Positions 2,113-53,747 of a stretch of 64,000 nucleotides of DNA are shown piece after piece. Position numbers and translations under genes: made by a program. Below the pieces are notes generated by a model. That model was not told the origin of the DNA and ran no database searches. It saw nothing but the letters and a program-made list of their open reading frames with translations. Every line of letters starts with the position of its first letter. Position 1 is the first letter of the stretch. This stretch comes from Pyropia yezoensis (Eukaryota > Rhodophyta > Bangiophyceae > Bangiales > Bangiaceae): contig CM020619.1 of NCBI GenBank assembly GCA_009829735.1, positions 20,155,816-20,219,815 on the forward strand. Direction: 5' to 3'.

Positions 2113-2114
2113 TT

Positions 2115-2132: not shown

Positions 2133-2231
2133 CAGAGGTAAACTTTACCTCCGGGTGCACCCGGGTATAGGGGGCCCTCTGTCTCAGAGAAACGGTGGAC
2201 TTGGACCGTGTCATACGTATCGTTAGCCAAC

Positions 2232-8856: not shown

Positions 8857-8967
8857 GGGAAGGCCGGGTGGTAGTGCCAAGAGAGTGCTCCAAGTCGAAG
8901 TGATACGCAGAGTGGCTCTTAACTACAGCCCTAACCCTCACACTCTCACAACAAAGGCAGCTTCCAT

Positions 8968-10911
8968 CTAGGCGTGCATGCTAGACTCTCCAACCCCACG
9001 GCCCTCGCCCTCACGTGGAGGCGAGCGGCGAGACCCACTTCGATAACGCTCCCCACCAGTCGGGGGGGCCGGCGGCTCCAAGTCGGAACCGTCGCGCCCC
9101 TCACGGTCGCGCAAGTGGCGACGACCGCGGCTGCTCTTCTGCTTAGTCTTGCGCGCAAGTTGGCGGCGCAGACGGCGGACCGACTCCGACTATGACGGAG
9201 TCGAGGGCTCCGAGACGGAATAAGACAACTCGTCTTCCGACACGGAGGGAGAGCGCCGCGAGTGACGGCGACGACGGCGAGGAGGCGAGTATGCCCGGCT
9301 CGCCCGACGTTTGCGACGCCGAAGTGGGGCTGGCTGGGGCACAATAGCCCCGATGCGAGCCAACTCGGCCGTCAAAAACTCCGCCACCGACTCGCAACTC
9401 GCGGTCGCCACTGCAGTACGAACGCGCTCCTCAAGTTGAGGAGTCTCGGACGTTTGAAGGGTTGCGGTCGACGCGGCCAACCAGGACATGGTGCGCACCA
9501 ACGTGGTGATCATCATCTCTGAGGTTAGAGGCGTGGGCAATAACACCAACTTGGGGTATACCGTCAGGAGGGTGGCCCCCAAGTTGGGGGACACCGGGGT
9601 GGACGACTCAACGGGCACGCTTATCGGGATGTCCCCGTGCGGCTGGTAGGGGACAGGAGGAAGTGGAGGGGCACGCCGAGGTGGCGGTGCCCGAGTGTAA
9701 CTGCGACCCCTACTCGGGGCTTCCGCAGTGGGTTCAGCCATATGGTCATCGTGAGAGGGCACGGCCATCACTATGGCCTTGTCCGGGGGCGGCGCAGTGT
9801 AACGATCCACCCCCGGGGCATACGGGTAGTCCCCGATGCCCAACCCCTCTCGTAGCACCACACGGCCGTCGTGAAGTTCACGAGCGACCCATACGAACTG
9901 GCGAAGTGCGCCATCGTCCTTGGGCCCGTGGGTGGGGCGGCGCAACTTGTGCTCGATGCTCTCCCACTCGATAAACTTGTGGAGGCGGAGCATCTCCTCA
10001 AGTAGAGTGAGTTGTCCTGATGAGCACCCCTTAGCAGCTAGCTGAGGGGTGAGCTGTTCCAAACCTTGGATAAGCCGGAGGGGGAGATGCCAGAGCATCC
10101 GCCGCCGCTGAACACAAGACACCCAGGTCGACATGACCTCGAGGAGCCACTGGGTGGCCAACATGGCCCACACCAGGTGATCAGGGCCAGCCGTCAACAT
10201 GACGGAGCCGCAGTGGTCGAGCAACCAGGGTAGTAACGCAGGGAACCCGTAGGGGACCTCAACTTGAGGCCACCACTCGGGCTTTTTCGGGTAGTACTGC
10301 TCCTTACTGGCAGCTGACTGCTGCGGAAACTCAAGTTGAGCCGAGGTCACCAAGTAGGGACCTCGCCGGAAGTCCTTCTCCATCCGCACATCAAAGTGAT
10401 GAGTGTGCGGGTCAGCCTCGTGAAGGTACGGGGGGCGAGTTGCCACCGCGTTCCAGGTAAAGGTCGGCAGGTCGCCGGGACCCGGGATAGTTCCCCCGCG
10501 GTCCATCATGGCCTTGGCCCGCTGGACGTCTTCGATTTCCTCATCTTCCTGGAAGGCAAACTGGTCCGTCCTGAAGCCGGCAAGGAACGCGACCCTACGA
10601 AGATACTTCTCCCGTAGGCGGACCCATACCCGACCCATCGCTGGGCCAAGTCGGCCACAGCGAAGAACAGTCAACCCCTCCTCATACAGAGGCCAAGCGG
10701 GGTAGAACCACCGCCCCAAGGCCTCACGTGGGACGAATTGGCCCGCTTCCGGGTGAGATCCCGCCGTCAACCCAAAGCCGGGTGACGCGGGAGTCCCATC
10801 CCCCGGAGCGATCGCGGAGCCCCCGCCGGAAGTCCCGGCGGGCGCTGCACCGTAAGAGGTGTCCTCCATACGTTCGTCAAGAGAGTCGGTCTCCACCCCC
10901 GCGGTCGCCAT
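8968..10911 (-). pseudogene. Antisense ORF of A1 (aORF-A), nonsense-mutated
   Basis: A long ORF opposite in strand to gag-pol, lying between integrase and the 3' LTR. The ATG at 10911 (MATAGVETD...) is the likely start; the frame is open farther upstream but has no ATG there. Full length would be 647 aa, as in A2. A TAG at 9190-9192 (GAG in A2) removes the last 74 residues, which are Arg/Ser-rich. The product has no family I recognise: an acidic N-terminus, a central Trp/Leu-rich globular region, a Pro-rich linker, then an RS-like tail. Its stop faces the pol stop across 111 bp. The same ORF in the same place occurs in A2, A3 (remnant) and A4. Confidence 0.85.
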
Positions 10912-11234
10912 GGCTCTCCCCAAGTTAGGGAGAGACCCCCTGGTTGCAGCGGCACGAGACCCACGTCGAGTTGAGGGCGGCTCGGATCGTGGGTAAATGG
11001 GTGGCCTCCCCTGCGTCGGGCGGCCAAGGGGAAGGTGAAGGGGATGTGTTGGTGATGGTGAAGAAAGAAGCGGGGAGAGCAAGCTGCCGAGTGGGCAAGC
11101 TTGAGGAGAGGGGCGGTCAACGTGACCGCCTCCACGTCCACGTTACGTACGCTGAGGGACAGCAAGTCGCGCCCCCAACGCCGAGACGTGCGTTTACGCA
11201 CCGCCTCACAGGGCCGACCGGGTCGGTCGGAACT

Positions 11235-11247
11235 GAGGAGAGGGGAG
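11235..11247 (+). promoter_or_regulatory. Polypurine tract of A1
   Basis: GAGGAGAGGGGAG immediately precedes the 3' LTR and would prime plus-strand DNA synthesis. The same tract occurs at 46924-46936 in A3 and, on the minus strand, at 26800-26812 in A2. Confidence 0.85.
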
Positions 11248-11716
11248 TGTGGCAGTATTGACCCCCAAGTAGGGGGGCAGCACGTGCCATGCAAGGGGCG
11301 GCTGGCCACTAGCCTGACCCGTTCCTCCCCCTGCATTTGGGTCCGTATTCCCTAAGTTTGGGATAGTTAGCTTAGTAGTAAATCCAACTTGGATTTGAGG
11401 GTTTTCTGCATTTATCGTCTTGAATCTTTGTGTGGCCCGGTGGGCAGGTGCTGGGGTGGGAGATTCTGAGTGGCGAGATTCTGAGTGGTTCCTGGGGGGA
11501 TAAGGGAAGGGACAGCGGGGCTTGGCCCTGCGTCCCCGTCCCGACCAAGAAACTGTTGGACCACACACCATCTTCTTGTTTGTCAGTGGGGGGATTGCCC
11601 CACAACAGGGATAGAGTGCGTGCGACTTGCACTTCTTCCGGCTCCCCCGGCACGGGAATCAGCCCTTGTACACCGCCACAACTTGGGTGTCGCGTGTGCG
11701 AGAGCTTTTTGCCACA
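11248..11716 (+). repeat. 3' LTR of A1 (469 bp)
   Basis: Same ends and length as the 5' LTR, followed by the target duplication CCTGG at 11717-11721. Confidence 0.95.
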
Positions 11717-11721
11717 CCTGG

Positions 11722-24988: not shown

Positions 24989-25084
24989 GACCAACCATCG
25001 GACGGCACTGAGGGCACGGAACGAGCGGAGCGGATGAACTCGACGGGCACCATCGACGAGTCGGGTGCTCTTTTTGACGGCGGG

Positions 25085-26331: not shown

Positions 26332-26799
26332 TGTGGCAAAAACCACTTATACACACGGCACCCAAGTTGGGGCGGTGTACAAGGGCTGCCTCCCGTGTCG
26401 GGGGAACGGGAAGAAGTGCAAGTCGCACACACTCTGTCCCTGTTGTGGGGCAAACCCCCCACTGACAAACAAGAGGATGGTGTGTGGTCCAACAGTTTCT
26501 TGGTCGGGACGGGGACGCAGGGCCAAGCCCCGCTGTCCCTCCCCTTATCCCCCCAGGGTCCCCTCAGAATCTCGCCACTCAGAATCTCCCACCCCAGCAC
26601 CTGCCCACCGGGCCACACAAAATTCAAGACGATAAATGCAGAAAACCCTCAAGTCCAAGTTGGATTTACTACTAAGCTAACTATCCCAAACTTAGGGAAT
26701 ACGGACCCAAATGCAGGGGGAGGAACGGGTCAGGCTAGTGGCCTGCCGCCCCTTGTATGGCACGTGTTGCCCCCGTATCTGGGGGTCAATACTGCCACA
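26332..26799 (-). repeat. 3' LTR of A2 (468 bp)
   Basis: Plus-strand ends TGTGGCAAAAACC and TCAATACTGCCACA, the inverse of the A1 LTR. The polypurine tract (minus-strand GAGGAGAGGAGAG) lies at 26800-26812. Confidence 0.95.
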
Positions 26800-27137
26800 C
26801 TCTCCTCTCCTCAGTTCCGACCGACCCGGTCGGCCCTGTGAGGGGGTGCGTAAACGCACGTCTCGGCGTTGGGGGCGCGACTTGCTGTCCCCCATTGAGT
26901 ACGTAACGCGGATGTGGAGGCGGTCACGTTGACCACCACTTTTCTCTAGCTTGCCCACTCGGCAGCTTGCTCTCCCCGGTTCTCGCTTCACCATCACCAC
27001 CACCTCCCCTTCACCTTCCACTGGGCCGCCCCACGCTGAGGAGGCCACCCGTCTACCCACGATCCGAGTCCCCCTCAACTCGAGGCGGGTCTCGTGCCGC
27101 TGTAGCCAGGGCGTCTCTCCCCAACTTGGGGAGAGCC

Positions 27138-29081
27138 ATGGCGACCGCGGGGGTGGAGACCGACTCTCTTGACGAACGTATGGAGGACACCCCCTACGGT
27201 GCAGCGCCCGCCGGGACTTCCGGCGGGGGCTCCGCGATCGCTCCGGGGGATGGGACTCCCGCGTCACCCGGCTTTGGGTTGACGGCGGGATCTCACCCGG
27301 AAGCGGGCCAATTCGTCCCACGTGAGGCCTTGGGGCGGTGGTTCTACCCCGCTTGGCCTCTGTATGAGGAGGGGTTGACTGTTCTTCGCTGTGGCCGACT
27401 TGGCCCAGCGATGGGTCGGGTATGGGACCGCCTACGGGAGAAGTATCTTCGTAGGGTCGCGTTCCTTGCCGGCTTCAGGACGGACCAGTTTGCCTTCCAG
27501 GAAGATGAGGAAATCGAAGACGTCCAGCGGGCCAAGGCCATGATGGACCGCGGGGGAACTATCCCGGGTCCCGGCGACCTGCCGACCTTTACCTGGAACG
27601 CGGTGGCAACTCGCCCCCCGTACCTTCACGAGGCTGACCCGCACACTCATCACTTTGATGTGCGGATGGAGAAGGACTTCCGGCGAGGTCCCTACTTGGT
27701 GACCTCGGCTCAACTTGAGTTTCCGCAGCAGTCAGCTGCCAGTAAGGAGCAGTACTACCCGAAAAAGCCCGAGTGGTGGCCTCAAGTTGAGGTCCCCTAC
27801 GGGTTCCCTGCGTTGCTACCCTGGTTGCTCGACCACTGCGGCTCCGTCATGTTGACGGCTGGCCCTGATCACCTGGTGTGGGCCATGTTGGCCACCCAGT
27901 GGCTCCTCGAGGTCATGTCGACCTGGGTGTCTTGTGTTCAGCGGCGGCGGATGTTTTGGCATCTGTCCCTCCGGCTTATACAAGGTTTGGAACAGCTCAC
28001 CCCTCAGCTAGTTGCTGAGGGGTGCTCATCAGGACAACTCACTCTACTTGAGGAGATGCTCCGCCTCCACAAGTTTATCGAGTGGGAGAGCATCGAGCAC
28101 AAGTTGCGCCGCCCCACCCACGGGCCCAAGGACGATGGCGCACTTCGCCAGTTCGTATGGGTCGCTCGTGAACTTCACGACGGCCGTGTGGTGCTACGAG
28201 AGGGGTTGGGCATCGGGGACTACCCGTCTGCCCCGGGAAGGGATCGCCACACTGCGCCACCCCCGGACAAGCCCATAGTTATGGCCGTGCCCTCATACGA
28301 TGACCACATGACTCAACCTACTGCGGAAGCCCCGAGTAGGGGTCGCAGTTACACTCGGGCACCGCCACCTCGGCGTGCCCCTCCACTTCCTCCTGTCCCC
28401 TACCAGCCGCACGGGGACATCCCGATAAGCGTGGCCGTTGCGTCGTCCACTCCGGTGTCCCCCAACTTGGGGGCCACCCTCCTGACGGTATACCCCAAGT
28501 TGGTGTTATTGCCCACGCCTCTAACCTCAGAGATGATGATCACCACGTTGGTGCGCACCATGTCCTGGTTGGCCGCGTCGACCGCAACCCTTCAAACGTC
28601 CGAGACTCCTCAACTTGAGGAGCGCGTTCGTACTGCAGTGGCGACCGCGAGCTGCGAGTCGGTGGCGGAGTTTATGACGGCCGAGTTGGCTCGCATTGGG
28701 GCTATTATGCCCCATCCAGCCCCACTCGGGCATGGCAAACGTCGTGCGAGCCGGGCATACTCGCCTCCTCGCCGTCGTCGCCGACGCTCGCGGCGCTCTC
28801 CCTCCGTGTCGGAAGACGAGTTGTCTTACTCCGTCTCGGAGTCCTCGACTCCGTCAGAGTCGGAGTCGGTCCGGCGTCTGCGTCGCGAACTTGCGCGCAA
28901 GACTAAGCAGAAGAGCAGCCGCGGTCGTCGCCACTGGCGCGACCGTGAGGGGCGCGACGGTTCCGACTTGGAGCCGCCGGCCCCCCCGACTGGTGGGGAG
29001 CGTTATCGGGGTGGGTCTCGCCGCTCGCCTCCACGTGAGGGCGAGGGCCGTGGGGTTGGAGAGTCTAGCATGCATGCCTAG
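27138..29081 (+). CDS. Antisense accessory protein aORF-A, intact (647 aa)
   Basis: The intact copy of the ORF carried opposite to gag-pol in all A elements. The ATG at 27138 is the first in frame; earlier codons back to 26967 lack ATG. Regions: acidic Gly/Ser-rich N-terminus (1-60); a segment with PREALGRWFYPAWPLYEEG (about 60-80); a Trp-, Leu- and His-rich core with PPYL (about 159), YYPKKPEWW (about 206-214) and RRRMFWHLSLRL (about 269-280); a Pro-rich linker with many PP pairs (about 395-440); a Leu/Thr/Ala-rich segment; and an Arg/Ser tail (about 535-647) with RRSPS and SESESVRR. The tail looks like the RS regions of splicing-related proteins and would favour nuclear location. No known domain is recognised. 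It ends 111 bp from the pol stop, in convergent orientation. It needs an antisense promoter, perhaps in the LTR or in 26813-27137. Confidence 0.85.
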   Translation: MATAGVETDSLDERMEDTPYGAAPAGTSGGGSAIAPGDGTPASPGFGLTAGSHPEAGQFVPREALGRWFYPAWPLYEEGLTVLRCGRLGPAMGRVWDRLREKYLRRVAFLAGFRTDQFAFQEDEEIEDVQRAKAMMDRGGTIPGPGDLPTFTWNAVATRPPYLHEADPHTHHFDVRMEKDFRRGPYLVTSAQLEFPQQSAASKEQYYPKKPEWWPQVEVPYGFPALLPWLLDHCGSVMLTAGPDHLVWAMLATQWLLEVMSTWVSCVQRRRMFWHLSLRLIQGLEQLTPQLVAEGCSSGQLTLLEEMLRLHKFIEWESIEHKLRRPTHGPKDDGALRQFVWVARELHDGRVVLREGLGIGDYPSAPGRDRHTAPPPDKPIVMAVPSYDDHMTQPTAEAPSRGRSYTRAPPPRRAPPLPPVPYQPHGDIPISVAVASSTPVSPNLGATLLTVYPKLVLLPTPLTSEMMITTLVRTMSWLAASTATLQTSETPQLEERVRTAVATASCESVAEFMTAELARIGAIMPHPAPLGHGKRRASRAYSPPRRRRRRSRRSPSVSEDELSYSVSESSTPSESESVRRLRRELARKTKQKSSRGRRHWRDREGRDGSDLEPPAPPTGGERYRGGSRRSPPREGEGRGVGESSMHA

Positions 29082-29192
29082 TTGGCAGCTGCCTTTGTTG
29101 TGAGAGTGTGAGGGTTAGGGCTGTAGTTAAGAGCCACGCTGCGTACCACTTCGACTTGAAGCACTCTCTTGGCACTGTTGCTCGGCCTTCCC

Positions 29193-32100
29193 TCACGTTG
29201 AGGGAGGGCTGTTAGGGTCTTTCTCATTCTGGGCACAGTAGGCCCAGACCTTCTCAGCGGGAAGGTCCTCCACATACTCCCACGTATCATCCTTGGCTTT
29301 GTAGCCGAACCAACGCACCCTCAACATGAGGCGGTCAGTGTCCTCATCCCAGCCGTGGTCGATGAACTTATCGAACACGTACTCCTGCGGGCCCTGTTTG
29401 GCCGCAGGCAGTGAGGGGAGGCGCCACGCTTCCAACGCACGCGTCCAAGCTGGGTCGCCTGCAGGCGGTGGTGCAACTTTGACCACGTCCTGTCCGTTTA
29501 CTGTGAGGACCCCATCGTCACTTTCGATGGTGAAGCACCGCCCATCAGTACGAAGGACCTGGTACGGCCTCTTCGTCTGGAATACCAACTGACCCCCAGT
29601 TGGGGTGTGTGAGTGGACTAATACCCAGTCACCTTGTTCGGGGACATGCTTGGCGTTGCGCACCTTTTTGTCAAAGGTACGCTTGTAGCGCTTTTGTGCT
29701 TTGTCCATCTCAGCCCTGACTTTAGGGATGAGGTTTTCAAGCCTAGCAGCCAACTCCGCCTTACTCTCAGTAGGAGTAGGCGTCCTGCCACCATCCTCCC
29801 TAGTTGGGAGCGGCCGCCGCACGGCAATAGACCGCACGCGACGGGGGGTCACAAAAGCGAGGGGTACTTCCCCGGTAAATGAGTGAACCTGCGAATTGTA
29901 GGCAGTGGTAAGAATAGAAATGTATTGGTCCCACGTTTTCACGTGCTCACTCACATAGTGGCGCAGCTGCCTAACAATGGCTTTGTTGAAGCGCTCCACC
30001 TGCCCATTAGTTTGTGGGTGGTAGGGGGTGGCATAGTTTGCCCGCACCCCCAACATATCCAGCACTCCCTGAAACAGTACAGACGCAAATTGCGGTCCAT
30101 TGTCCGATAGTGTACTATCCGGAATGCCATACGCGGCAACCCAGTGATCTAGGAAGGCTGACACGACCGACATGGCCGTGATCTCTGCCAGTGGGATCGC
30201 TCGCGTAAGTTTCGTGAAGCGATCGCAAATGACCAGGAGGTACTGGTTGCCCTCCTCGGTCACTGGCAGTGGCCCAAGGATGTCCATCGCCAACGCGGCA
30301 AGGGGCTCCTTGGCCGGGAACAATAGCATAGACGTAGTAAGCCGCCGTTCCATCAGACGGTTCTGTGCACAACTTGTGCAGGCAGCCACCCAACTGTAGA
30401 TGTCCACCACCATGGACGGCAAGTAGTACCTGGTCCTCAGGGTCCGGTACAGTTTACTAGACCCCAGGTGTCCACCTGTGGGAGCGTTATGCTTCCTCTC
30501 AAGGATACTGTCCTTGAGGGATGCTGGCACGACAAGTTGTTCGGTCCCCTGGAATACCCCCCTCCTCAAGAGGAGGCCATCGTCTCCGATGAAGAACCGC
30601 GTCTCCGCCACCGTATCTAGAGTATCCCTCTGCGACTTGCAGAAGGGATCCTCGGCCTGGGCCTTCACCACCTCGTCCAGGGACAGGGGCAAGTTCTTCT
30701 TGTTCCCTCGCGCCTCGGGGTCCAACGCCTGACCCGAGCGCGTTACTACCCCCACGATGGGGATGTCCTCATCGACTGGGTTAGTGTCCAGCCCCTCGGT
30801 AGGTACCCGAGAGAGGCCGTCGGCAAGGGCATGTTGCCGGCCAGGTCGGTACTCAATATCAAAGTTGAAGGGTGCCAGTCGCACCCTCCACCGGTTGAGA
30901 CGAGTGTTCGTAAAGTCCGTCTTGAAGATGAACTGCAACGCGCGGTGGTCACAGCGGATGAGAAACGTCTCACCCTCTAGGTAGTGACGAAGTGACGTCA
31001 CCGCCCACACCACTGCGAGTCCTTCCAACTCGGTGACTCCGTAGTTCTTCTCAGCCGAGTTCAGCCCCTCGCTGAAGTATCCCACCGGCAAGTACTCGTT
31101 GTCCTGCTGCTGCTGAAGCAACACACAACCAAATTGGTCGTAGCTAGCGTCCACATCCAGGATGTAGTGGACTCCCAACCTGGGAATAGCCAGGATAGGG
31201 GGCTTCAGCAGAAGGTCCCGAAGAGTCTCAAAGGATTCCTGCTCCATTCGACTTGGAGGAGGCAGGTTCTTCGGTAGCGTTGAGCTCACTAACTCACACA
31301 ACGGTTTCGCCACCTTGGCGAAGCCCTTGGTGAAACGTCGGTACACGTTACACATCCCGAGGAAGCTCCTCATCTGGGTCTGCGTCCGGGGGTACTGAGC
31401 CTTACGGATGGCCCTCAAGTTCTTCTCGTTGACACTGAGGCGCCCCGGACGGACAACCTGTCCCAAGTATTCCACCTCTTGAGTGAAGAGGTGGCACTTT
31501 CTCGCCTTCAGTGACACACCGGCGTCAGCAAGTAGCTTGAACACCTGGCCAAGATGGCCAATGTGTTCCTCCGGACTTCGGGAGAACACAATGATATCGT
31601 CTAGGTACACGAGACAGATCTGCCACCGTACTCCGGCCAGAATCATGTCCAAAGCGCGCTGGAAAGTTGCCGGCGCGTTGTACAGTCCAAACGGTAGGCG
31701 CTTGCACTGGTAGGTACCATAGTGACAGGTAAAGGTAGGTTTATGCCTGTCCTCCGGGGCAATGGGAATTTGCCAGTACCCCGCGTTACAGTCCAGGGTA
31801 GAGAACACGTTCGCCTCCCCCAGAGAGTCCAGACAGTCGTCCATCCTAGGTAGGGGATAACTGTCCTTCACCGTGCTCTTGTTGAGCTTACGGTAGTCGA
31901 TACAGATCCGTGGGGTCCCATCAACTTTGGGGACGATAACCACCGGACTCGCCCACTCGGCGTTACTGGCCTCGATCACATCGAGGGCCTCCATGCGAGC
32001 AACTTGCTCCTTGACGAGGGCCCTTGAACTGGGTCCTCCCCTATACGGTTGTTGGCGTATAGGGGGTGCACCGGGCTTCAACTCGACCCGGTGTTGGGTG

Positions 32101-33335
32101 GCTCTCATGAGTCCCAATTTACCATCCCGCAACTTGTGATATTGGTCCAAGAGGCGTTCAACTTGAACCCTCAACCTGGGTGGGACACCCTTCATGCTCA
32201 CATGGGGCCGAGGAGAGGCGGCCGACTTGGCTTGATGCTTCTCCTTTCCGGACTTCGGGTCGCTACTTGCGCCCGCGTTGAGGGTGACCGCTACTACCGG
32301 TCCCTCGTGTTGGTCGATATAGCCGAACTTGGCTCCCGACTTGAAGTACTTGGGCGACGAGCTCAGGTTCATCACCTGGATCCTCCACGGGACTCCGGCT
32401 TTGGAGTCCATCGCGCCAAGGGCAACATGCACTTGGTGCTTGCGAGCAAGACGGGGGTGAGGGTGCACCAACCCGTTCCCCTTATAATCAGTTACAACGT
32501 CAACGTGCGCCACAGAGTTGAGGGGCAACGTGACCTTACGGGCTAAACGCATGGTAGCAGTAAACGCTTCTCTCACGGAGCAAAAAGGCTTCGACTGTGA
32601 GACTGTCACAGGAGCCACAGACTTTCCCTTACCAAGGATGGGGATGGTTTCCCCATTCATCAACTTCACCCAATACTCAGGGCCACAAATCAAAGGCACT
32701 TGTGTTACAACATAAGGGGTACCAAGAAGCAGGGGTACCGATATATTTTCGACTACTCCACAGGTCACGTCGACCTCATGGGTCCCCAACCTAGTTGGTA
32801 GGGTCACGGCACCAACGATGGGAAGTACCCCACCATTGATATCGATCAGATGGTCGGCTTTAGACTTCCAGCGTTGGAGCTTCATCTCCTTTGGTAATAG
32901 CGACTTGCGTATCAAGGAGGCTCCTGACCCGGTATCAAGTACGATACGGGCACAACGGGCACGGCCGGGGGCAGGTTGCACCCGTCCAGCCACCTGGAAG
33001 CTCTCACCCGTCAGCACCGCGATGACCCGACGTGGGTTTACGTTCTTGGGGAGTCCTACCCGAGGTGGGCGGACTCCCTTAGGTCGCCGCAGTATCCGGC
33101 ACGGTTGGTTCGTCATCTTGACCCACTTGGCCGAGGCTGCCGTTGTGAGCTTCGGACGGCCAGCTCCAACGGTCATTCGTTTCCCGCCGACTTGGCGTCT
33201 GAATCTGAGTGCGAAGGGGAAGACGACGAGTCCGAGGACGACGTGTCCGCCTCCTCCGCAGAGGGTGTGGCGACTGCGACAACCGGTCGAGGTCCACCCT
33301 CGCGGCATGAACGTACTTCGTTCGTAGCCGACTTC
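29193..33335 (-). CDS. Pol polyprotein of A2, open throughout
   Basis: The only uninterrupted A-family pol here: 1371 codons from ATG 33308, with the frame open from 33335, overlapping gag by about 160 bases in the -1 frame. Domains with positions from that ATG: retropepsin-type protease LDTGSGASLI (about 125), RT with YLDD (about 567), RNase H, integrase finger (HNAPTGGH...CTSCAQNR, about 940-985), catalytic D (AMDILG, about 1008), D (LSDNGPQF, about 1066) and E (GQVERFN, about 1103), and a chromodomain-like end (LRVRWFGYKAKDDTWEYVEDL). It copies element RNA and inserts the DNA. A ribosomal frameshift from gag is the expected route; I see no clear slippery heptamer. Confidence 0.93.
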   Translation of the reverse strand, partial: EVGYERSTFMPRGWTSTGCRSRHTLCGGGGHVVLGLVVFPFALRFRRQVGGKRMTVGAGRPKLTTAASAKWVKMTNQPCRILRRPKGVRPPRVGLPKNVNPRRVIAVLTGESFQVAGRVQPAPGRARCARIVLDTGSGASLIRKSLLPKEMKLQRWKSKADHLIDINGGVLPIVGAVTLPTRLGTHEVDVTCGVVENISVPLLLGTPYVVTQVPLICGPEYWVKLMNGETIPILGKGKSVAPVTVSQSKPFCSVREAFTATMRLARKVTLPLNSVAHVDVVTDYKGNGLVHPHPRLARKHQVHVALGAMDSKAGVPWRIQVMNLSSSPKYFKSGAKFGYIDQHEGPVVAVTLNAGASSDPKSGKEKHQAKSAASPRPHVSMKGVPPRLRVQVERLLDQYHKLRDGKLGLMRATQHRVELKPGAPPIRQQPYRGGPSSRALVKEQVARMEALDVIEASNAEWASPVVIVPKVDGTPRICIDYRKLNKSTVKDSYPLPRMDDCLDSLGEANVFSTLDCNAGYWQIPIAPEDRHKPTFTCHYGTYQCKRLPFGLYNAPATFQRALDMILAGVRWQICLVYLDDIIVFSRSPEEHIGHLGQVFKLLADAGVSLKARKCHLFTQEVEYLGQVVRPGRLSVNEKNLRAIRKAQYPRTQTQMRSFLGMCNVYRRFTKGFAKVAKPLCELVSSTLPKNLPPPSRMEQESFETLRDLLLKPPILAIPRLGVHYILDVDASYDQFGCVLLQQQQDNEYLPVGYFSEGLNSAEKNYGVTELEGLAVVWAVTSLRHYLEGETFLIRCDHRALQFIFKTDFTNTRLNRWRVRLAPFNFDIEYRPGRQHALADGLSRVPTEGLDTNPVDEDIPIVGVVTRSGQALDPEARGNKKNLPLSLDEVVKAQAEDPFCKSQRDTLDTVAETRFFIGDDGLLLRRGVFQGTEQLVVPASLKDSILERKHNAPTGGHLGSSKLYRTLRTRYYLPSMVVDIYSWVAACTSCAQNRLMERRLTTSMLLFPAKEPLAALAMDILGPLPVTEEGNQYLLVICDRFTKLTRAIPLAEITAMSVVSAFLDHWVAAYGIPDSTLSDNGPQFASVLFQGVLDMLGVRANYATPYHPQTNGQVERFNKAIVRQLRHYVSEHVKTWDQYISILTTAYNSQVHSFTGEVPLAFVTPRRVRSIAVRRPLPTREDGGRTPTPTESKAELAARLENLIPKVRAEMDKAQKRYKRTFDKKVRNAKHVPEQGDWVLVHSHTPTGGQLVFQTKRPYQVLRTDGRCFTIESDDGVLTVNGQDVVKVAPPPAGDPAWTRALEAWRLPSLPAAKQGPQEYVFDKFIDHGWDEDTDRLMLRVRWFGYKAKDDTWEYVEDLPAEKVWAYCAQNEKDPNSPPST

Positions 33336-35119
33336 TTACTCGCATTCCTAACAAGTTGTTGAATGCGTTTACTCAACTTGGCGCAATCATATGCCCAGTG
33401 TCCATCGGAGTTGCAGTTCCAACACCGATTATCAGTTCCCGGAGGGGTCTTCCCAACTGGGGAAGCCGAAGAGATACCCTGGGAAGTTCCCACGGCAGCT
33501 ACCACCCTTTCCTTGCGGATTCGGCGTGCCTCTCTCAACTCTCTGGCCTGGCGCGCCTCCTACCATTCCTTGGCCAACTCGGCTTGACGGTCTTGGCGTT
33601 GTTCCTCCCGAAACTTGCGGTAGGCCTCACCTCTGCGGTAGGCGAACCTAGCCAACTCAGCCAGGGTCGCCCGGGCAGTGTTATGCTCCCGGGTCTCCAT
33701 CCGGACTGACCAATGGAGTCCCTCCACAAACCGACTCTTCACCACAGCTTGTGGATGAAGAAACCCACAAAGATTGTTGAGCTTACGAGCCCGCTCCGCA
33801 AAGGACCACTCGTCCTCAGCCTCTTCCTGATGGGCTTGCGTAAACTCCTCGACTTGAGAAGCCAACGGTGCTTCACCAACCATGGCTCTCAACAACCAGT
33901 TGACGAGCTCAAAATAGGACGTCACCTCACCAGCGCCTCCACTTGAGGAACTGGGCATGACGGACATAACTTCTTTCCGCAGGTCGCCCTTCGTGAACTC
34001 CTGTAGCATATAGAGAGCCATGCCTTCACTTATGGCATTGTCGTCACAGGCTTTTGTGAAACGACGTAGGAACTCAAAGACACGGAGGGGGGGAGTTCCA
34101 TCCCACTCCGCTTTGTGCCCAAAAGAGTGAAGTGCATTCTTCTTGGCACGGCCCATGGCTCGGGCCTGGACAGGACCGTACGCCACCGACTTGTTGTGGA
34201 GGGCGTAGGTCTCACAATCAGAGATCCTCTGGTAGACTGGGTTGGCTACCTGGATCTTGGGCGGCACCTCACGTTGAGGGAACAGCCGCTGTGGCACTGG
34301 GGTAAGTTGACCCTCAGTGCCCATTGTCTGGCGCGGCGCGCTTGGTGTAGCCGCCGGCGTTTCCGGGGGAATCTCCCCCGTGAGGGGCGTACGCCCCACC
34401 GAGAATGGTGTGGCTCCCTCGTTGGGAGCCACAGGTGTCGCCCCCTGTTCGAGGCGACCCGAGATAGGCGTGAGGAGGGATTCCCCCTGCGCCTGCGGGC
34501 TCGAAAGCCCCGATCCGGTCTGGACATTAAGGCCATCTGGCAAACTCGCCACAATCTGATTCAGAATAGTATTCGTCATCGTGACGACCAGGTCCGGCAA
34601 AGTCTGCCGCAACACATTGGTCGCCTCCCGACGGACAGTTTCCGCGAGGAGTGGATTGTCGACTCCAGTTGAGTTTCGGTCCGCCTCCGGGAGTCCACCT
34701 GAGGGGTAACCACGATCCTCAGGGGTCTCAACCGGGGGCATGGGCGCGAGCCCATCGCCGACCAACAGAGGTCCGCCGTCCTCCGAAAGCCTAGTTGGCG
34801 ACGGCTCCAAGCCAAAGTTGGCTCCAACCCGAGTGGAACCCGCGGGGACAGTCCTCACCCCTTGGGACGTTCCCGTTGAGTGTACCACACGGTGGCCAGA
34901 CTTCGGCCCACCCACATCAGAAGTGTCACCCGAGTGATCTCCCGACTGAGTCGGGGTGGCCTGTTTCCCGCCCGCACTTCCAGTCCTGCTGGCTTGAGGG
35001 ACCTCTAGTCCCTCTGCGACCACAGGTAAGCCCACCTGTGTCTCACCAGTATTCAAAGGCACTAAAGTACGTGCGTCACCCGTGTACTCCCCGGACGACG
35101 GGGGGTCCGAACTAGCTAT
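33173..35119 (-). pseudogene. gag of A2 (start lost, amber codon)
   Basis: Same Gag as in A1: Pro/Thr/Gly/Ser-rich N-terminus, capsid-like EFLRRFTKACDDNAISEG region, charged helix, zinc knuckle CWNCNSDGHWAYDC, and a Ser/Asp-rich end. At the position of the A1 start codon A2 has ATA, and only a GTG lies upstream (35143). An amber TAG at 33560-33562 follows KEW; A3 has the same amber. The frame continues afterwards to 33173. Function would need suppression or help from another copy. Confidence 0.88.
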
Positions 35120-35218
35120 GTTGGCTGACGATCCGTATGACACGGTCCAAGTCCACCGTTCCTCTGAGACAGAGGGCCCCCTACACCCGGGTGCACCCGG
35201 AGGTAAAGTTTAACTCTG

Positions 35219-35236
35219 TCCCCTGCTGCTCCACCA
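35219..35236 (-). promoter_or_regulatory. Primer-binding site of A2
   Basis: Minus-strand TGGTGGAGCAGCAGGGGA, two bases inside the 5' LTR end at 35239. Confidence 0.88.
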
Positions 35237-35238
35237 AA

Positions 35239-35859
35239 TGTGGCAAAAACCACTCGCACACGCGGCACCCAAGTTGGGGCGGTGTACAAGGGCTGCCTCC
35301 CGTGTCGGGGGAACCGGAAGAAGTGCAAGTCGCACACACTCTGTCCCTGTTGTGGGGCAAACCCCCCACTGACAAACAAGAGGATGGTGCGTGGTCCAAC
35401 AGTTTCTTGGTCGGGACGGGGACGCAGGGCCAAGCCCCGCTGTCCCTCCCCTTATCCCCCCAGGGTCCCCTCAGAATCTCGCCACTCAGAATCTCTCACC
35501 CCAGCATTTGCCCACCGGGCCACACAAAGATTCAAGACGATAAATGCAGAAAACCCTCAAATCCAAGTTGGATTTACTACTAAGCTAACTATCCCAAACT
35601 TAGGGAATACGGACTCAAATGCAGGGGGAGGAACGGATCAGGCTAGTGGCCTGCCGCCCCTTGCATGGCACGTGTTGCCCCCGTACCTGCGCAGTGGGTC
35701 AGACCGAGTACCTACATTTCCGTGCAAGATGGCCTTTACGGCCTCTGTGGGAGGGTCGGCTTCTGTAAGCAGGCCCTCACGACCCCCTGAGGGCCGTCTT
35801 GCACGGAAATGTAGGTACTCGGTTTTAGACCCACTGCGCTGGGGGTCAATGCTGCCACA
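35239..35859 (-). repeat. 5' LTR of A2, interrupted by a MITE
   Basis: 621 bp in place of 469: removing the 149-bp MITE and its 3-bp duplication leaves exactly 469 bp, the A1 LTR length. Confidence 0.95.
35690..35838. mobile_element. Palindromic MITE, CGCAGTG type
   Basis: A 149-bp insertion with near-perfect inverted arms of about 47 bp: CGCAGTGGGTC...ACCTACATTTCCGTGCAAG on the left and its complement on the right. The 3-bp target duplication is CTG (35687-35689 and 35839-35841). It has no coding capacity. Its terminus and its CTG/CAG duplication match the larger element at 38830-40470, suggesting a common mobilising transposase. Confidence 0.92.
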
Positions 35860-42570: not shown

Positions 42571-43019
42571 CAGGGGGGCAGCACGTGCCAATCAAAGGGC
42601 GGCAGGCCACTAGCCTGACCCGTTCCTCCCCCTGCACTTGGGTCCATATTGCCTAAGTTTGGGATAGTTAGCTTAGTAGTAAATCCAACTTGGATTTGAG
42701 GGTTTTCTGCATTTATCGTCTTGAATCTTTGTGTGGCCCGGTGGGCAAATGCTGGGGTGAGAGATTCTGAGTGGCGAGATTCTGAGGGGACCCTGGGGGG
42801 ATAAGGGGAGGGACAGCGGGGCTTGGCCCTGCGTCCCCGTCCCGACCAAGAAACTGTTGGACCACACACCATCTTCTTGTTTGTCAGTGGGGGGATTGCC
42901 TAACAACAGGGACAGAGTGTGTGCGACTTGCACTTCTTCCGGTTCCCCCGACACGGGAGGCAGCCCTTGTACACCGCCCCAACTTGGGTGCCGCGTGTGC
43001 GAGTGGTTTTTGCCACATT

Positions 43020-43037
43020 TGGTGGAGCAGCAGGGGA
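43020..43037 (+). promoter_or_regulatory. Primer-binding site of A3
   Basis: TGGTGGAGCAGCAGGGGA, two bases after the LTR end. Confidence 0.88.
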
Positions 43038-43136
43038 CAGAGGTAAACTTTACCTCCGGGTGCACCCGGGTGTAGGGGGCCCTTTGTCTCAGAGGAACGG
43101 TGGACTTGGACCGTGTCATACGGATCGTGAGCCAAC

Positions 43137-45083
43137 ATGGCTTGTTCGGACCCCCCGTCGTCTGGGGAGTACACGGGTGACGCACGTACTTTAGTGCCTT
43201 TGAATACTGGTGAGACACAGGTGGGCTTACCTGGGGTCGCAGAGGGACTAGAGGTCCCTCAAGCCAGCAGGACTGGGAGTACGGGCGGGCAACAGGCCAC
43301 CGCGACTCAGTCGGGAGTTCATTCGGGTGACACTTCTGATGTGGGTGGGCCGAAGTCTGGCCACCGTGTGGTACACTCAACGGGAACGTCCCAAGGGGTG
43401 AGGACTGTCCCCGCGGGTTCCACTCGGGTTGGAGCCAACTTTGGCTTGGAGCCGTCGCCAACTAGGCTTTCGGAGGACGGCGGACCTCTGTTGGTCGGCG
43501 ATGGGCTCGCGCCCATGCCCCCGGTTGAGACCCCTGAGGATCGTGGTTACCCCTCAGGTGGACTCCCGGAGGCGGACCGAAACTCAACTGGAGTCGACAA
43601 TCCACTCCTCGCGGAAACTGTCCGTCGGGAGGCGACCAATGTGTTGCGGCAGACTTTGCCGGACCTGGTCGTCACGATGACGAATACTATTCTGAATCAG
43701 ATTGTGGCGAGTTTGCCAGATGGCCTTAATGTCCAGACCGGATCGGGGCTTTCGAGCCCGCAGGCGCAGGGAGAATCCCTCCTGACGACTATCTTGGGTC
43801 GCCTCGAACAGGGGGCGACACCTGTGACTCCCAACGAGGGAGCCGCATCCTTCTCGGTGGGGCGTACGCCCCTCACGGGGGAGATTCCCCCGGAAACGCC
43901 GGCGGCTACACCAAGCTCGCCGCGCCAGACAATGGGCACTGAGGGTCAACTTACCCCAGTGCCACAGCGGCTGTTCCCTCAACGTGAGGCGCCGCCCAAG
44001 ATCCACGTAGCCAACCCGGTCTACCAGAGGATCTTTGATTGTGAGACCTACGCCCTCAACAACAAGTCGGTGGCAATCGGTCCTGTCCAGGCCCGAGCCA
44101 TGGGCCCTGCCAAGAAGAATGCACTTCACTCTTTTGGCCACAAAGCGGAGTGGGATGGAACTCCCCCCCTCCGTGTCTTTGAGTTCCTACGTCGTTTCAC
44201 AAAAGCCTGTGACGACAATGCCATAAGTGAAGGCATGGCTCTCTATATGCTACAGGAGTTCACGAAGGGCGACCTGCGGACAGAAGTTATGTCCGTCATG
44301 CCCAGTTCCTCAAGTGGAGGCGCTGGTGAGGTGACGTCCTATTTGGAGCTCGTCAACTGGTTGTTGAGAGCCATGGTTGATGAAGCAGCGTTGGCTTCTC
44401 AAGTCGAGGAGCTTACGCAAGCCCATCAGGAAGAGGCTGAGGACGAGTGGTCCTTTGCGGAGCGGGCTCGTAAGCTCAACAATCTTTGTGGGTTTCTTCA
44501 TCCACAAGCTGTGGTGAAGAGTCGGTTTGTGGAGGGACTCCATTGGTCAGTCCGGATGGAGACCCGGGAGCATAACACTGCCCGGGCGACCCTGGCTGAG
44601 TTGGCTAGGTTCGCCTACCGCAGAGGTGAGGCCTACCGCAAGTTGCGGGAGGATCAACGCCAAGACCGTCAAGCCGAGTTGGCCAAGGAATGGTAGGAGG
44701 CGCGCCAGGCCAGAGAGTTGAGAGAGGCACGCCGAATCCGCAAGGAAAGGGTGGTAGCTGCCGTGGGAACTTCCCAGGGTATCTCTTCGGCTTCCCCAGT
44801 TGGGAAGACCCCTCCGGGAACTGATAATCGGTGTTGGAACTGCAACTCCGATGGACACTGGGCACATGATTGCCTCAAGTTGAGTAAACGCATTCAACAA
44901 CTTGTTAGGAATGCGAGTAAGAAGTCGGCTACGAACGAAGTACGTTCATGCCGCGAGGGTGGACCTCGACCGGTCGTCGCGGTCGCCACACCCTCTGCGG
45001 AGGAGGCGGACACGTCGTCCTCGGACTCGTCGTCTTCCCCTTCGCCCTCGGATTCAGACGCCAAGTCGGCGGGAGACGAATGA
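43137..45083 (+). pseudogene. gag of A3 with amber codon
   Basis: Full-length A-family Gag from ATG 43137 (MACSDPPSSGEY). TAG at 44694-44696 follows KEW, exactly as in A2, and the same frame continues through the charged helix and the zinc knuckle CWNCNSDGHWAHDC to TGA at 45081-45083. Pol overlaps the end in the -1 frame. Confidence 0.88.
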
Positions 45084-46376
45084 CCGTTGGAGCTGGCCGT
45101 CCGAAGCTCACAACGGCAGCCTCGGCCAAGTGGGTCAAGAGGACGAACCAACTGTACCGGATACTGCGGCGACCTAAGGGAGTCCGCCCACCTCGGGTAG
45201 GACTTCCCAAGAACGTGAACCAACGTCGGGTCATCGCAGTGCTGACGGGTGAGAGCTTCCAGGTGGCTGGACGGGTGCAACTAGCCCCCGGCCGTGCCTG
45301 TTGTGCCCGTATCGTACTTGATACCGGGTCAGGAGCCTCCTTGATACGCAAGTCGCTATTACCAAAGGAGATGAAGCTCCAACGCTGGAAGTCTAAAGCC
45401 GACCATCTGATCGATATCAATGGTGGGGTACTTCCCATCGTTGGTGCCGTGACCCTACCAACTAGGTTGGGAACCCATGAGGTCGACGTGACCTATGGAG
45501 TAGTCGAAAATATATCGGTACCCCTGCTTCTTGGTACCCCTTATGTTGTAACACAAGTGCCTTTGATTTGTGGCCCTGAGTATTGGGTGAAGTTGATGAA
45601 TGGGGAGACCATCCCCATCCTTGGTAAGGGAAAGTCTGTGGCTCCTGTGACAGTCTCACAGTCGAAGCCTCTTTGCTCCGTGAGAGAAGCGGTTACTGCT
45701 ACCCTGCGTTTAGCCCGTCAAGTGACGTTGCCCCCCCAACTCGGTGGCGCTCGTTGACGTTGTAACTGATTATAAGGGGAACGGGTTGGTGCACCGTCAC
45801 CCCCGTCTTGCTCGCAAGCACGAAGTGTATGTTGCCCTTGGCACGATGGACTCCAAAGCCGGGGTCCCGGAGAGGATCCAGGTTATGAACTTGAGTTCGT
45901 CGCCCAAGTACTTCAAGTCGGTAGCCAAGTTCGGCTATATCGACCAACACGAGGGACCGGTAGTAGCGGTCACCCTCAATGCGGGCGCGAGTCGCGGCCC
46001 GAAGGCCGGAAAGGAGAAGCACCAAGCCAAGTCGGCCGCCTCTCCTCGACCCCATGTGAGCATGGAGAGTGTTCCACCCAGGTTGAGGGTTCAAGTTGAA
46101 CGCCTCTTGGGCCAATATCACAAGTTGCGGGATGGTAAATTGGGACTCATGAGAGCCACCGAGCACCGGATCGAGTTGAAACCCGGCGCACCCCCTATAC
46201 GCCAACAACCGTATAGGGGAGTGCCCCGTTCAAGGGCCCTCCTTAAGGAGCAAGTCGCTCGCATGGAGGCCCTCGGTGTGATCGAGGCCAGCAACGCCGA
46301 GTGGGCGAGTCCGGTGGTTATTGTCCCCAAAGTTGATGGGACCCCACGGTTCTGTATCGACTACCGTAAGCTCAAC
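44921..46376 (+). pseudogene. pol fragment of A3 (protease to start of RT)
   Basis: The frame opens at 44921; the first ATG is at 44948. Protease LDTGSGASLI is present. An extra C in the run at 45728-45734 (seven C, six in A1) shifts the frame. The shifted frame runs through the linker to the RT motif RFCIDYRKLN, then breaks at about 46377. The YLDD motif, RNase H, integrase and chromodomain are deleted. Confidence 0.88.
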
Positions 46377-46606
46377 ATATATAGAGGCCAAGCGGGGTAA
46401 AACCACCGCCCCAAGGCCTCACGTGGGATGACGCGGCCCGCCTCCGGGGGAGATCCCGCCGTCAACCCAAAGCCGGGCGAAGCGGGAGTCCCAGCCCCCG
46501 GAGCAGCCGCGGAGCCCCCGCAGGATGTCCCGGCGGGCGCTACACCGTAGAAGGTGTCCTCAATACGTTCATCCAGAGAGTCAGTCTCGACCCCCGGGGT
46601 CACCAT
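46377..46606 (-). pseudogene. N-terminal stub of the antisense ORF in A3
   Basis: ATG at 46606 (MVTPGVETDSLDERIED) begins the same N-terminus as the A2 aORF, and about 75 codons remain before the junction with RT sequence. It shows that A3 once had the full antisense ORF in the standard place. Confidence 0.85.
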
Positions 46607-46936
46607 GGCTCTCCCCAAGTTAGGCAGAGATGACCTGGCTGCATTTGCACGAGACCGGCCTCGAGTTGAGGGTGGCTCGGATCGCGGGTAGATGGGTGTC
46701 ATCCCCTGCGTGGGGCGGCCCAGGGGAAGGTGAAGGGGATGTGTTGGTGTTGGGGAGGGGAGAACCGACGGGAGCAAGCTGCCGAGTGGGCAAGCTTGAG
46801 GAGAGGGGCGGTCAACGCGACCGCCTCCGCGTTACGTACCCTGGGGGACAGCAAGTCGCGCCCCCAACGCCGAGACGTGCGTTTACACGCCCCCTCGCAG
46901 GGCCGACCGGGTCGGTCGGAACTGAGGAGAGGGGAG

Positions 46937-47407
46937 TGTGGCAGTATTGACCCCCAGGTAGGGGGCCAACACGTGCCATGCAAGGGGCGGCAGGCCACTA
47001 GCCTGACCCCTTCCTCCCCCTGCATTTGGGTTCATATTCCCTCAGCTTGGCATAGTTAGCTTAGTAGTAAATCCAACTTGGATTTGAGGGTTTTCTGCAT
47101 TTATCGTCTTGAATTTTTTCGTGTGGCCGAGTGGGCAGGTGCTGGGGTGGGAGATTCTGAGTGGCGAGATTCTGAGGGGACCCTGGGGGGATAAGGGGAG
47201 GGACAGCGGGGCTTGGCCTCGCTTCCCCGTCCCGACCAAGCAACTGTTGGACCACACACCATCTTCTTGTTTGTCAGTGGGAAGATTGCCCCACAACAGT
47301 GATAGAGTGTGTGCGACTTGCACTTCTTCCGGTTCCCCCGACACGGGAGGCAGCCCTTGTGCACCGCCCCAACTTGGGTGTCGCGTGGGTAAGAAGTTCT
47401 GGCCACA
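46937..47407 (+). repeat. 3' LTR of A3 (471 bp)
   Basis: Begins TGTGGCAGTATTGACCCCC after the polypurine tract GAGGAGAGGGGAG (46924-46936) and ends TCTGGCCACA. The last 25 bases diverge from the other A LTRs. Confidence 0.9.
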
Positions 47408-50760: not shown

Positions 50761-52069
50761 GTGGTGGCCTCAAGTCGAGGTCTTCTACGGGTTTCCGGCG
50801 CTACTACCCCGGTTGCTCGACCACTTCGGCTCCGCCATGTTGACGGCCAGCCCGGACCACCTGGTGTTGGCCATGTTGGCAACCCAGTGGCTCCTCGAGG
50901 TCATGTCGACCTGGGTGTCTTGTGTCCAGCGGCGGGGGATGTTTTGGCATCTGTCCCCCCGGCTTATACAAGGTTTGGAACAGCTCACCCCTCAGCTAGT
51001 TGCTGAGGGGTGCTCATCGGGACAGCTCACTCTATTTGAGGAGATGCTGCGTCTTCATAAGCTCATCGACTGGGAGAGCATCGAGCACAAGTTGCGCCGC
51101 TCCACCCGCGGGCCCAAGGACGATGGCGCATTTCGCCAGTTCGTCTGGGTCGGTCGTGAGCTTCACGACGGCCGTGTGGTACTACGAGAGGGGTTGGGCA
51201 TCGGGGACTACCCGTATGCCTCGGGGGTGGATCGCCACACTGCGTCACCCCCGGACAAGGCCATAGTGATGGCCGTGCCCTCTCATGATGACTACCTGCC
51301 TCAACCCACTGCGGGAGCCCCGAGTAGGGGTCGCAGTTACACTCGGGCACCGCCACCTCGGCGTGCCCCTCCGCTTCCTCCTGTCCCATTCCAGCCGCAC
51401 GGGGACATCCCGATAGGCGTTGCCGTTGAGCCGTCCACTCCGGTGTCCCCCAACTTGGGGGCCACTCTCCTCACGGTCTACCCCAAGTTTGTACTGCCGG
51501 CCACGCTCTTGACCGCCGAGATGATGATCACCACGCTGGTTCGCACCATTTTTTGGTTGGCCGTGTCGACCGCAACCCTTCAAGTTTCCAAGATTCTTCA
51601 ACTTGAGGAGCGCGTTCGTACTGTTGTGGCGACCGCGAGTTGCGAGTCGGTAGCGGGGTTCATGACGACCGAGTTGGCTCGTATTGGAACGATTGAGCCC
51701 CAGCTGGCCCCACTTGCGCTTGGCAAGCGTCGGGAAAGCCGGGCACACTCGCCTCCTCGCCGTCGTCGCCGTCACTTGCGGCGGTCTCCCTCCGTGTCAG
51801 AAGAAGAGTTGTCTTATTCCGTCTCGGAGTCCTCTACCCCGTCGGAGTCGGAGTCGGTCCGGCGTCTGCGTCGCCAACTTGCGCGCAAGACCAAGGAAAA
51901 GGGTAGCCGCGGTCGTCGCCACTTGCGCGACCGTGAGGGGCGCGACGGTTCCGACTTGGAGCCGCCGCCCCAGCCGACTGGTGGGGAACGTTATCGGCGT
52001 GGGTCTCGCCGCTCGCCTCCACGTGAGGGCGAGGGCCGTGGTGTTGGAGAGTCTAGCATGCGTGCCTAG
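50761..52069 (+). pseudogene. Antisense ORF of A4, 5'-truncated but open
   Basis: About 435 codons from WWPQVEVFYGFPALLP to the stop at 52069, the same end as in A2. The frame is uninterrupted from residue 213 of the reference through the RS tail (GSRRSPPREG near the end). It has drifted from A2 at scattered residues but keeps RRRG-FWHLS, the Pro-rich linker and the Arg/Ser tail. With no N-terminus it is presumably not expressed normally. Confidence 0.85.
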
Positions 52070-52158
52070 TTGGCAGCCGCCTTCGTTGTGAGAGTGTATG
52101 GGTTAGGGCTGTAGTTAAAAGCCACTCTGCGTACCACTTCGATTTGAAGCACTCTCTT

Positions 52159-53128
52159 TGTAAGGATTTGCCCAATAAATCCGCACCCGGAACCCAGGGG
52201 ATATGGACTGGGACCCCTCTTTACATGTCCGGCCCCGATAACTCCCCCCCAGAGACATGAATTCCCCACTACCCTGGGCGACACCACGCTCAATTCCTGA
52301 CGTTTTGCGAAGGTCGGCCGACCGCGCGAAAGCCGCCGTCAGCGCACTGTCGGAACCCTGTCATGGACGTCGAAACTCGACAACGAGGCGCGAGTGACAT
52401 CGTCGACCAACCACGGGCGGACATCCCCGTCTGTGCTGCCTGAATTTTATTCTCTGCGCTGCTTGAAAGCTGGCATCAAAGGCCAGTCACATGATTCGCC
52501 GACACTGAGGACACCACACATCCTCGCTGGCGGCTGAGTGCGAAATGACTGGCTCACCGGCTTTTGGATTGATTGAATTCGGCCAGCTGGTGGGTGACTG
52601 CCTGGCCGGTCAAGGGATTGACTGAATTTGGCCTTGCTGGTCCTTACCGCCGGTCGGACCTTCTGGCCAACCGGCTCTTGGAGCCGGCTGGTGGGGCGCC
52701 CTGGGCGCCATCCATGGAACCCCCTTCGTTTCGGGCAAACTGGGGCTGCACTCCTGTGGAGCGCACGCCCGCCCATGCTTTGTTCTGAGAGACAATCTTT
52801 GTTCTTGAACCGTTCTGTGCCTACCGGCGGTGCGATGGGGAAACGCATGCTGTGGGGCACCTCGGGTGCCCCGACGCGAGCATTTAGTGTGTGGGTGTCG
52901 GCGCCACCCGGGGAAACGAGAGGGGCAACCACAGACACAGACCAAAGACTCTGTTTACCTTTTGTAACTTCGATCCCCACCGACGTCGCGCCCATCTTCT
53001 TTCCCAGACCCACCCCTGTCGAGACCACCGTCCTCTTCCCCGTGCCCCGCTGCCCTATTGGCTGGCAGGGCGCGCTGACACCCCCTCGAGTACGTTGAGG
53101 GCTCCCCGGTTTTGGGTGGGTCCCCACG
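52159..53128. mobile_element. 970-bp insertion F in A4, probably a solo LTR
   Basis: It splits the convergent gap of A4 and is flanked by CTCTT (52154-52158 and 53129-53133). It begins TGTAAGGATTTGCCC and ends GGGTCCCCACG, so the right end is not a canonical CA. AATAAAT occurs at 52172. No coding region is seen. It is unrelated by eye to the LTRs of A to E. Confidence 0.6.
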
Positions 53129-53133
53129 CTCTT

Positions 53134-53747
53134 GGCACAGTCACTTGGCCTTTCCTGACGTTGAGGGAGGGCAGTTAGGGTCCATGTCATTCCGGGTGCA
53201 GTATGCCCGGACCTTCTCAGCTGGAAGCTCCTCCACGTACTCTTACGTATCATCCTTGGCCTTATAGCCGAACCAACGCACCCTCAACATGAGGCGGTTA
53301 GTGTCCTCATCCCACCCGTGGTCGATGACCTTATCGAACACGTACTCATGCGGGCCCTGTTTGGTCGCAGGCAGCGAGGGCAGGCGCCACGCTTTCAGCG
53401 CCCGCGCCCAAGCTGGGTCGCCTGCAGGCTGTGGTGCAACTTTGCCCACATCCTGTCCGTTTACTGTGCGGACCCCATCGTCACTTTCGATGGTGAAGCA
53501 CCGCCCATCAGTACGAAGGACCTGGTACGGCCCCTTCGTCTGGAATACCAACTTACCCCCAGTTGGGATGTGTGAGTGAACCAGTACCCAGTCACCCTGC
53601 TCGGGGACATGCTTAGCATTGCGCACCTTCTTGTCACAGCTACGATTGTAGCGCTTTTGCGCTTTGTCCATATCCAGCACTCCCTGAAACAATACAGACG
53701 CAAATTGCGGTCCATTGTCCGATAGTGTACTGTCCGGGATGCCATAC
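53134..53747 (-). pseudogene. Pol remnant of A4 (integrase core piece to chromodomain)
   Basis: The minus frame has the integrase motif LSDNGPQFASVLFQGVLDM joined directly to DKAQKRYNRS. In A2 these are about 120 residues apart, so the catalytic Glu segment (GQVERFN) is deleted. The C-terminal RVRWFGYKAKDDT chromodomain-like part follows, and its conserved TGG is a TAA stop. Confidence 0.88.

Follow-up and report, generated by a model that had tools for sequence, protein, structure and literature searches.

The 64-kb window of Pyropia yezoensis DNA considered here, that is, the whole stretch that was analysed, lies in a genome for which a GC content of 65% and a repeat content of 48% are given (PMC7423979). 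One phycobilisome-type match in it scores above the family cut-off. It contains elements A1 to A4 of one LTR retrotransposon family, A, and among these the complete element A2 carries a long intact open reading frame (ORF) on the strand opposite to pol (Table 1). The order of Pfam domains in A2 pol is that of Ty3/gypsy elements, and in a comparison with PDB sequences its closest solved relative is Ty3 Gag-Pol (E 7.8e-112). At the end of the integrase, the chromodomain family PF00385, by which the chromovirus branch is recognised, scores 16.9 bits in A, 12.9 in B and 22.7 in C (the latter two being families described below), all under the cut-off of 25.1. A1, A2 and B are each bounded by an LTR pair and a short target duplication, the two LTRs of A2 being 96.7% identical over 451 aligned bases. 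The antisense ORF of A2 is enclosed by the two LTRs and converges on pol tail to tail, at a distance of 111 bases (pol stop at 29193). A sequence-only reading of the window had reported it as an intact frame of 647 aa, belonging to the element and not to a later insert; the same ORF was recovered, and its position inside an LTR pair with AGCCG on both flanks bears out the second point as well. From stop to stop, the open run around this ORF extends over 724 codons. Order-2 Markov sequences were simulated at the length of 26801-29192, and none of 2000 reached a stop-free stretch of 647 codons, the largest being 565.

Table 1. Elements of families A and B in the window, with their antisense ORFs
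Feature	Position	Strand	Remarks
Element A1	1644..11717	+	target duplication CCTGG
A1 antisense ORF, same 647-codon frame	8968..10911	-	one stop, codon 574
Element A2, complete Ty3/gypsy	26332..35859	-	target duplication AGCCG on both sides
A2 3' LTR	26332..26799	-	
A2 purine-rich tract on the element strand, next to 3' LTR	~26800-26812		
A2 antisense ORF, intact, 647 codons	27138..29081	+	ATG 27138, stop at 29081
A2 pol	29193..33308	-	protease, RT, RNase H, integrase
A2 ORF in gag position, 527 codons	33560..35143	-	no Pfam match in the A2 copy
A2 5' LTR	35239..35859	-	short insertion with inverted ends near 35690-35842
Element A3, internally deleted	42572..47407	+	
A3 antisense ORF stub	46379..46606	-	matches first 76 codons
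Element A4, left part	50761..53747	-	broken at 52159 by apparent solo LTR
A4 antisense ORF fragment, 435 codons open	50762..52066	+	
Element B, nested in A4	53748..64606 (window part to 64000)	+	target duplication CATAC; LTRs 99.2% identical
B antisense ORF, between pol and 3' LTR	61344-63914, from ATG 61344..63659	-	

In A1, the full-length frame is retained apart from one nonsense codon and has no indel relative to A2, and in A3 an N-terminal stub is left, both as had been read from the letters beforehand. As for A4, the open stretch of about 435 codons stands, whereas the description of the element as truncated is incomplete: two insertions break it up, the first (52159 to ~53130) having the look of a solo LTR from a different family and the second being element B, after which A4 picks up again at 64607 and runs to at least 70134, outside the window. 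Between A1 and A2, 31 of 336 sites differ in the leader and 51 of 1944 in the ORF. Element B is a second carrier of an antisense ORF in the window, one absent from the sequence-only reading.

A search of the alga's own genome (107,475,971 bases in 11 contigs) yielded at least 40 copies of the A antisense ORF, the best 40 of 1519 candidates matching over approximately the whole length at 94-100% identity. The 20 best-scoring copies were read, a choice that favours copies near A2; 14 of them are open over 647 codons, the remaining six having a stop or a frame break. Pairwise dN/dS was computed on 19 copies, the one with a one-base deletion being dropped, and the pooled value amounts to 0.33 in the antisense frame, to 1.13-1.57 in four other frames and to 0.45 in frame -2. 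The low value of frame -2 is read as a shadow of the antisense frame, because the third positions of the two coincide and frame -2 is broken by 22-26 stops in the 19 copies; all five other frames have at least 11 stops in each of these full-length copies. Both the dN/dS check on the antisense frame and the check for conservation outside the window had been set beforehand: the former gave a value far below 1, and the latter found, in addition to the full-length A copies, the families B and C.

Synonymous changes are in excess when compared with permutations that preserved base and CpG status, with 68 against 38.1 expected between A2 and A4 and 70 against 40.2 between A1 and A4 (0 of 1000 permutations as high in either case), and 23 against 14.0 between A1 and A2 (p 0.004); frame -2 likewise has a synonymous excess in this test. 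No constraint was detected in gag in the 37 changes between A2 and A3, and single-pair tests are therefore weak in power. The sharpest test of selection among those run is the split of variants by age. Over 20 loci, N/S in the antisense ORF is 0.62 for shared variants and 1.76 for singletons; at the same loci, the pol end together with the 111 intergenic bases gives 0.75 and 2.33, and the leader, taken as 325 bases in the antisense frame, gives 4.20 and 2.51, respectively. By codon position, the shared variants in the ORF are distributed 26/19/78, an excess at third positions. Constraint on the A gene was in force as the elements multiplied and is comparable in strength to that on the pol end; the codon signal starts at the ATG. 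What tells against this is pairwise divergence, whose medians (ORF 0.0255, leader 0.0247, 3' LTR 0.0271) do not put the ORF below its surroundings.

The pol of family B is 41% identical to that of A. In five of ten fetched loci, the B antisense ORF stays open, counted from its ATG, for 815-819 residues in its longest segment; the end of the window copy is frame-shifted, the last ~50 residues of the other copies lying in another frame. With a query that takes in 85 codons upstream of the ATG, 37 of 53 scored copies (the best 53 of 36442 candidates) are stop-free across the query. The dN/dS of antisense pairs ranges from 0.25 to 0.45 in 15 pairs among six copies, namely the five long-ORF loci and the window copy, the four other fetched loci being excluded.

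Family C was reached via a pol fragment left of the window, with at least 150 matches at 89% identity or more (best 150 of 3810 candidates), the integrase part of C being 46% identical to that of A. Copies of C were fetched from the integrase onward, and the antisense ORF is open in both of the two fetched, with 705 and 748 codons, 145 bases behind pol and with a dN/dS of 0.18 for this one pair. The family was read from these two other copies, since the continuation of the left-edge element, in L024, gave no pol or antisense match at a useful E. The element at the left edge of the window has a gag match at 646-1368, and its pol lies in L023. Family D is more distant, its pol being 33% identical to that of A. 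In the one copy of D, a stretch matching the apparent solo LTR (52159-53132) begins ~350 bases behind pol, which leaves no room for an antisense ORF; the stretch is probably D's own LTR, and D, in this single copy, seems to be without the antisense gene.

The antisense proteins of the three families were compared with one another. The local scores are 87 for both A-B and A-C, with shuffle means near 35 and 0 of 1000 shuffles as high; the B-C score is weak and was reached by 14 of 1000 shuffles. Reversed controls gave 53 (A-B), 32 (A-C) and 34 (B-C), the A-B control lying above the shuffle mean of 35.5. Profile comparison returned E values of 7.2e-4 (A-B), 3.5e-4 (A-C) and 0.015 (B-C), the corresponding probabilities being 26%, 37.5% and 3%. 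By raw six-frame scores, other frame pairs outrank the antisense-antisense pair in A-C and B-C; after normalisation by shuffling, antisense-antisense comes first of 36 frame pairs, with z of 11.8 (A-B), 10.5 (A-C) and 3.9 (B-C). The common core corresponds to about residues 125-320 of A. The C-terminal parts are without similarity in A-B and A-C, and the similarity in B-C is weak (reached by 20 of 500 shuffles). As far as sequence similarity can tell, a core of the A protein is shown to be common to the B protein and to the C protein, and the three families have very likely inherited one gene, B and C being connected mainly through A as link.

No Pfam relative was found for the antisense proteins of A (scan to E 1) or of B and C (to E 10); in particular, the Pfam scans, up to E 10, gave no match to PF04195 (TRP28) in any of the three, nor was a chromodomain matched in any of them. 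Among PDB sequences the A protein had no match, and its profile had only two, at chance level (E 0.47 and 0.84), such that the earlier remark of a protein resembling nothing known is true for Pfam and PDB sequences. Six stretches in viral contigs and 42 in prokaryote genomes matched the pattern of the A antisense protein, none of which was confirmed, and the single stretch in viral contigs obtained for A pol was not confirmed either. Two structure models, with mean pLDDT of 33.3 and 47.9, are too poor for a fold search; they suggest, unreliably, a helical core. No transmembrane segment was predicted in A, B or C, the highest 19-residue mean hydropathy being 1.26-1.37 (threshold 1.4). The tail of A has six arginines in a row, but a run of at least four K/R is missing from the other two proteins, which is a point against a nuclear role.

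It is highly probable that the A frame was under purifying selection, like the pol end, during the multiplication of the elements, that B and C have open antisense ORFs in the same place, and that the A core is common with B and with C. To regard the antisense ORF as an accessory gene of a Ty3/gypsy lineage is well supported, and the sequence-only reading, which had proposed an accessory protein of the element, agrees with a dN/dS far below 1 and with a gene conserved beyond the window. A selected antisense accessory gene, common to three element families of one genome, is real. On the best reading, the space from pol to the 3' LTR in a Ty3/gypsy lineage holds an accessory protein gene that is encoded on the other strand. 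Its promoter would lie within the 3' LTR or next to it, as has been described for Grande gene23. By analogy, its product might act in the nucleus to regulate how the element is expressed or how it is shielded from host silencing, a tentative assignment that falls short of being likely; particle or RNA-export helpers and other roles would take most of the remaining probability.

Instead of a nuclear regulator, the product could be envelope-like or else help with particles or RNA export, a reading that is unlikely, albeit deserving serious attention. Envelope-like ORFs are described as sitting between pol and the 3' LTR (PMC7264820), and a helical core, taken from the unreliable models, would be in its favour; the envelope-like version is disfavoured by the antisense orientation and by hydropathy, for no 19-residue stretch in A, B or C exceeds a mean of 1.4. 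Much less probable is that the antisense transcript itself does the work, through pairing with genomic RNA or as a source or decoy of siRNA, whether a protein is made or not. LTR elements are known to give antisense RNAs and, according to the same source, RNA and protein roles can coexist (PMC7264820), but RNA alone would not yield codon constraint setting in at the ATG, where the shared-variant N/S passes from the leader value to the far lower one of the ORF. It is just as improbable that the elements picked up a host gene and carry it along as a passenger: host gene capture by LTR elements is on record (PMC7264820), yet a capture of recent date is at odds with the kinship of the proteins across families that share 41-46% identity in pol, and a passenger with the measured constraint, while an old capture that later became useful may fit. 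Lastly, that high G+C, or selection acting on a different frame, left the frame open as a side effect, with no protein made, is hardly credible and was rejected, for although the composition favours long ORFs (95 of at least 150 codons in the window) and frame -2 has a low dN/dS too, the simulations, the stops in every other frame, the synonymous excess, the third-position excess of shared variants and the dN/dS of the antisense frame all stand against it.

An accessory gene so placed has counterparts in plants, where antisense accessory ORFs (aORF-3R) are described in Grande (gene23), RIRE2, Retand and PvRetro13 (PMC7264820, PMC11963269). For Grande gene23, a nuclear location and a promoter of its own have been described, and such ORFs, named chiefly from flowering plants, are stated to have no known function (PMC7264820). 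The antisense ORFs of A, B and C resemble them in lying at the same place and in being open in most copies (14/20, 37/53 and 2/2, respectively), and differ from them in the red algal host and in proteins that match neither PF04195 nor any other Pfam family. Accordingly, the label of Grande-type, used in the sequence-only reading, remains apt for the layout but does not extend to the domain known from antisense ORFs of Retand, PF04195, for which no match was obtained up to E 10.

Another algal Ty3/gypsy element with a reverse-frame ORF is REM1 of Chlamydomonas, whose reverse frame reportedly includes a PHD finger. The elements reported here differ from REM1 in encoding their integrase in the sense frame and an antisense protein with neither a Pfam match nor a chromodomain; the reverse frame of REM1 is described as a truncated integrase with a GPY/F module and a chromodomain (PMC2774666). 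Outside plants, the fungal element Boty of Botrytis cinerea is listed with an antisense ORF in the interval from pol to the 3' LTR (PMC7264820), a likeness in position. No report of antisense ORFs in red algal elements was found among the matches listed from the openly licensed literature (titles and abstract openings); antisense ORFs of such layout are known elsewhere, and the A/B/C protein and the red algal host look new. The presence of a Pfam-less protein, encoded at the same place in high-copy elements and kept by selection, points to repeated recruitment of antisense genes. Furthermore, a compact genome with many open copies makes selection on the antisense gene directly measurable.

Element A2 also contains 18 CAACTTG or CAAGTTG sites, mostly in coding regions; 14 of them lie outside the LTRs, and among these the first flanking position is symmetric in 11 and the second likewise in 11. 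These palindromes would fit a candidate binding motif. VANC proteins counter silencing and are encoded by VANDAL transposons; VANDALs are DNA transposons. An LTR-element counterpart of VANC may be imagined as a working model, in which three or more gypsy families would encode, in antisense, the members of one red algal regulator family, each having diverged so as to recognise the palindromes of its own element and lift silencing there; such a scheme is improbable. The likeness to VANC consists in an element-encoded, fast-diverging protein and in short family-specific motifs repeated in the element; the motifs of VANC21 are described from non-coding regions and tandem repeats (PMC5735166), whereas the A palindromes are mostly in coding regions. 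Inverted repeats are in excess in B, with 77 of spacer 2 against 12.7 expected and 117 of spacer 4 against 12.6, and in A2, with 47 of spacer 5 against 10.7; no such excess was found in C, in part of D or in other window DNA (z at most 2.5). Since C carries the gene yet lacks the palindromes, a necessary link between the two is disfavoured. In the hairpins of B compared with a second B-type copy, three compensatory double changes were counted in 455 pairs, and the lower rate of change in the arms carries no claim because the hairpins were chosen as perfect in one copy. With longer arms, C has no excess, and z is 4.2 in the host locus L021, 5.0 in other window DNA and 21.4 in B pol.

Short perfect inverted repeats occur in strong excess in A2, a Ty3/gypsy element of the window, and in B, the window copy of the second family with an antisense ORF, and their spacers are family-specific, being odd in A2 and even in B. 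The same kind of count gave no such excess in C, the third family with an antisense ORF, and comparing the repeats of B with those of another B-type copy for covariation gave no informative signal. In A2 the motif CAACTTG or CAAGTTG is found 18 times, frequently embedded in longer odd palindromes, as against a single site in 13 kb elsewhere in the window (12001-25000) and one in 9.9 kb of B.

An identical sequence, likely the primer-binding one, adjoins the 5' LTR in both A and B, and the right LTR of A2 holds a short, MITE-like insertion with inverted terminal repeats. Two further stretches, matching the LTR of B and the likely LTR of C, are probably solo LTRs. Judged by its DDE_1 endonuclease match, another ORF is assigned to a further transposon; at L024, a locus of the same genome, an ORF adjoining a B-type copy may resemble a KDZ transposase. 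Finally, a 207-base unit of the window is duplicated in tandem with 99% identity.

Coordinates of the features (window numbering, except L024, which has its own)
Feature	Position	E-value
Inverted-repeat excess, A2	26814-35238	
Inverted-repeat excess, B	54112-64000	
CAACTTG/CAAGTTG, A2	26363, 27122, 27711, 27783, 28463, 28611, 30370, 32000, 32159 and nine more	
Putative primer-binding sequence, A	35223-35236	
Putative primer-binding sequence, B	directly after 54111	
Insertion in A2 right LTR	35690-35842	
Match to B LTR	23251-23612	
Match to likely C LTR	12209-12780	
ORF with DDE_1 match	41246-42262	4.9e-7
ORF beside B-type copy	L024 2717-3280	
Tandem duplication	14583-14998
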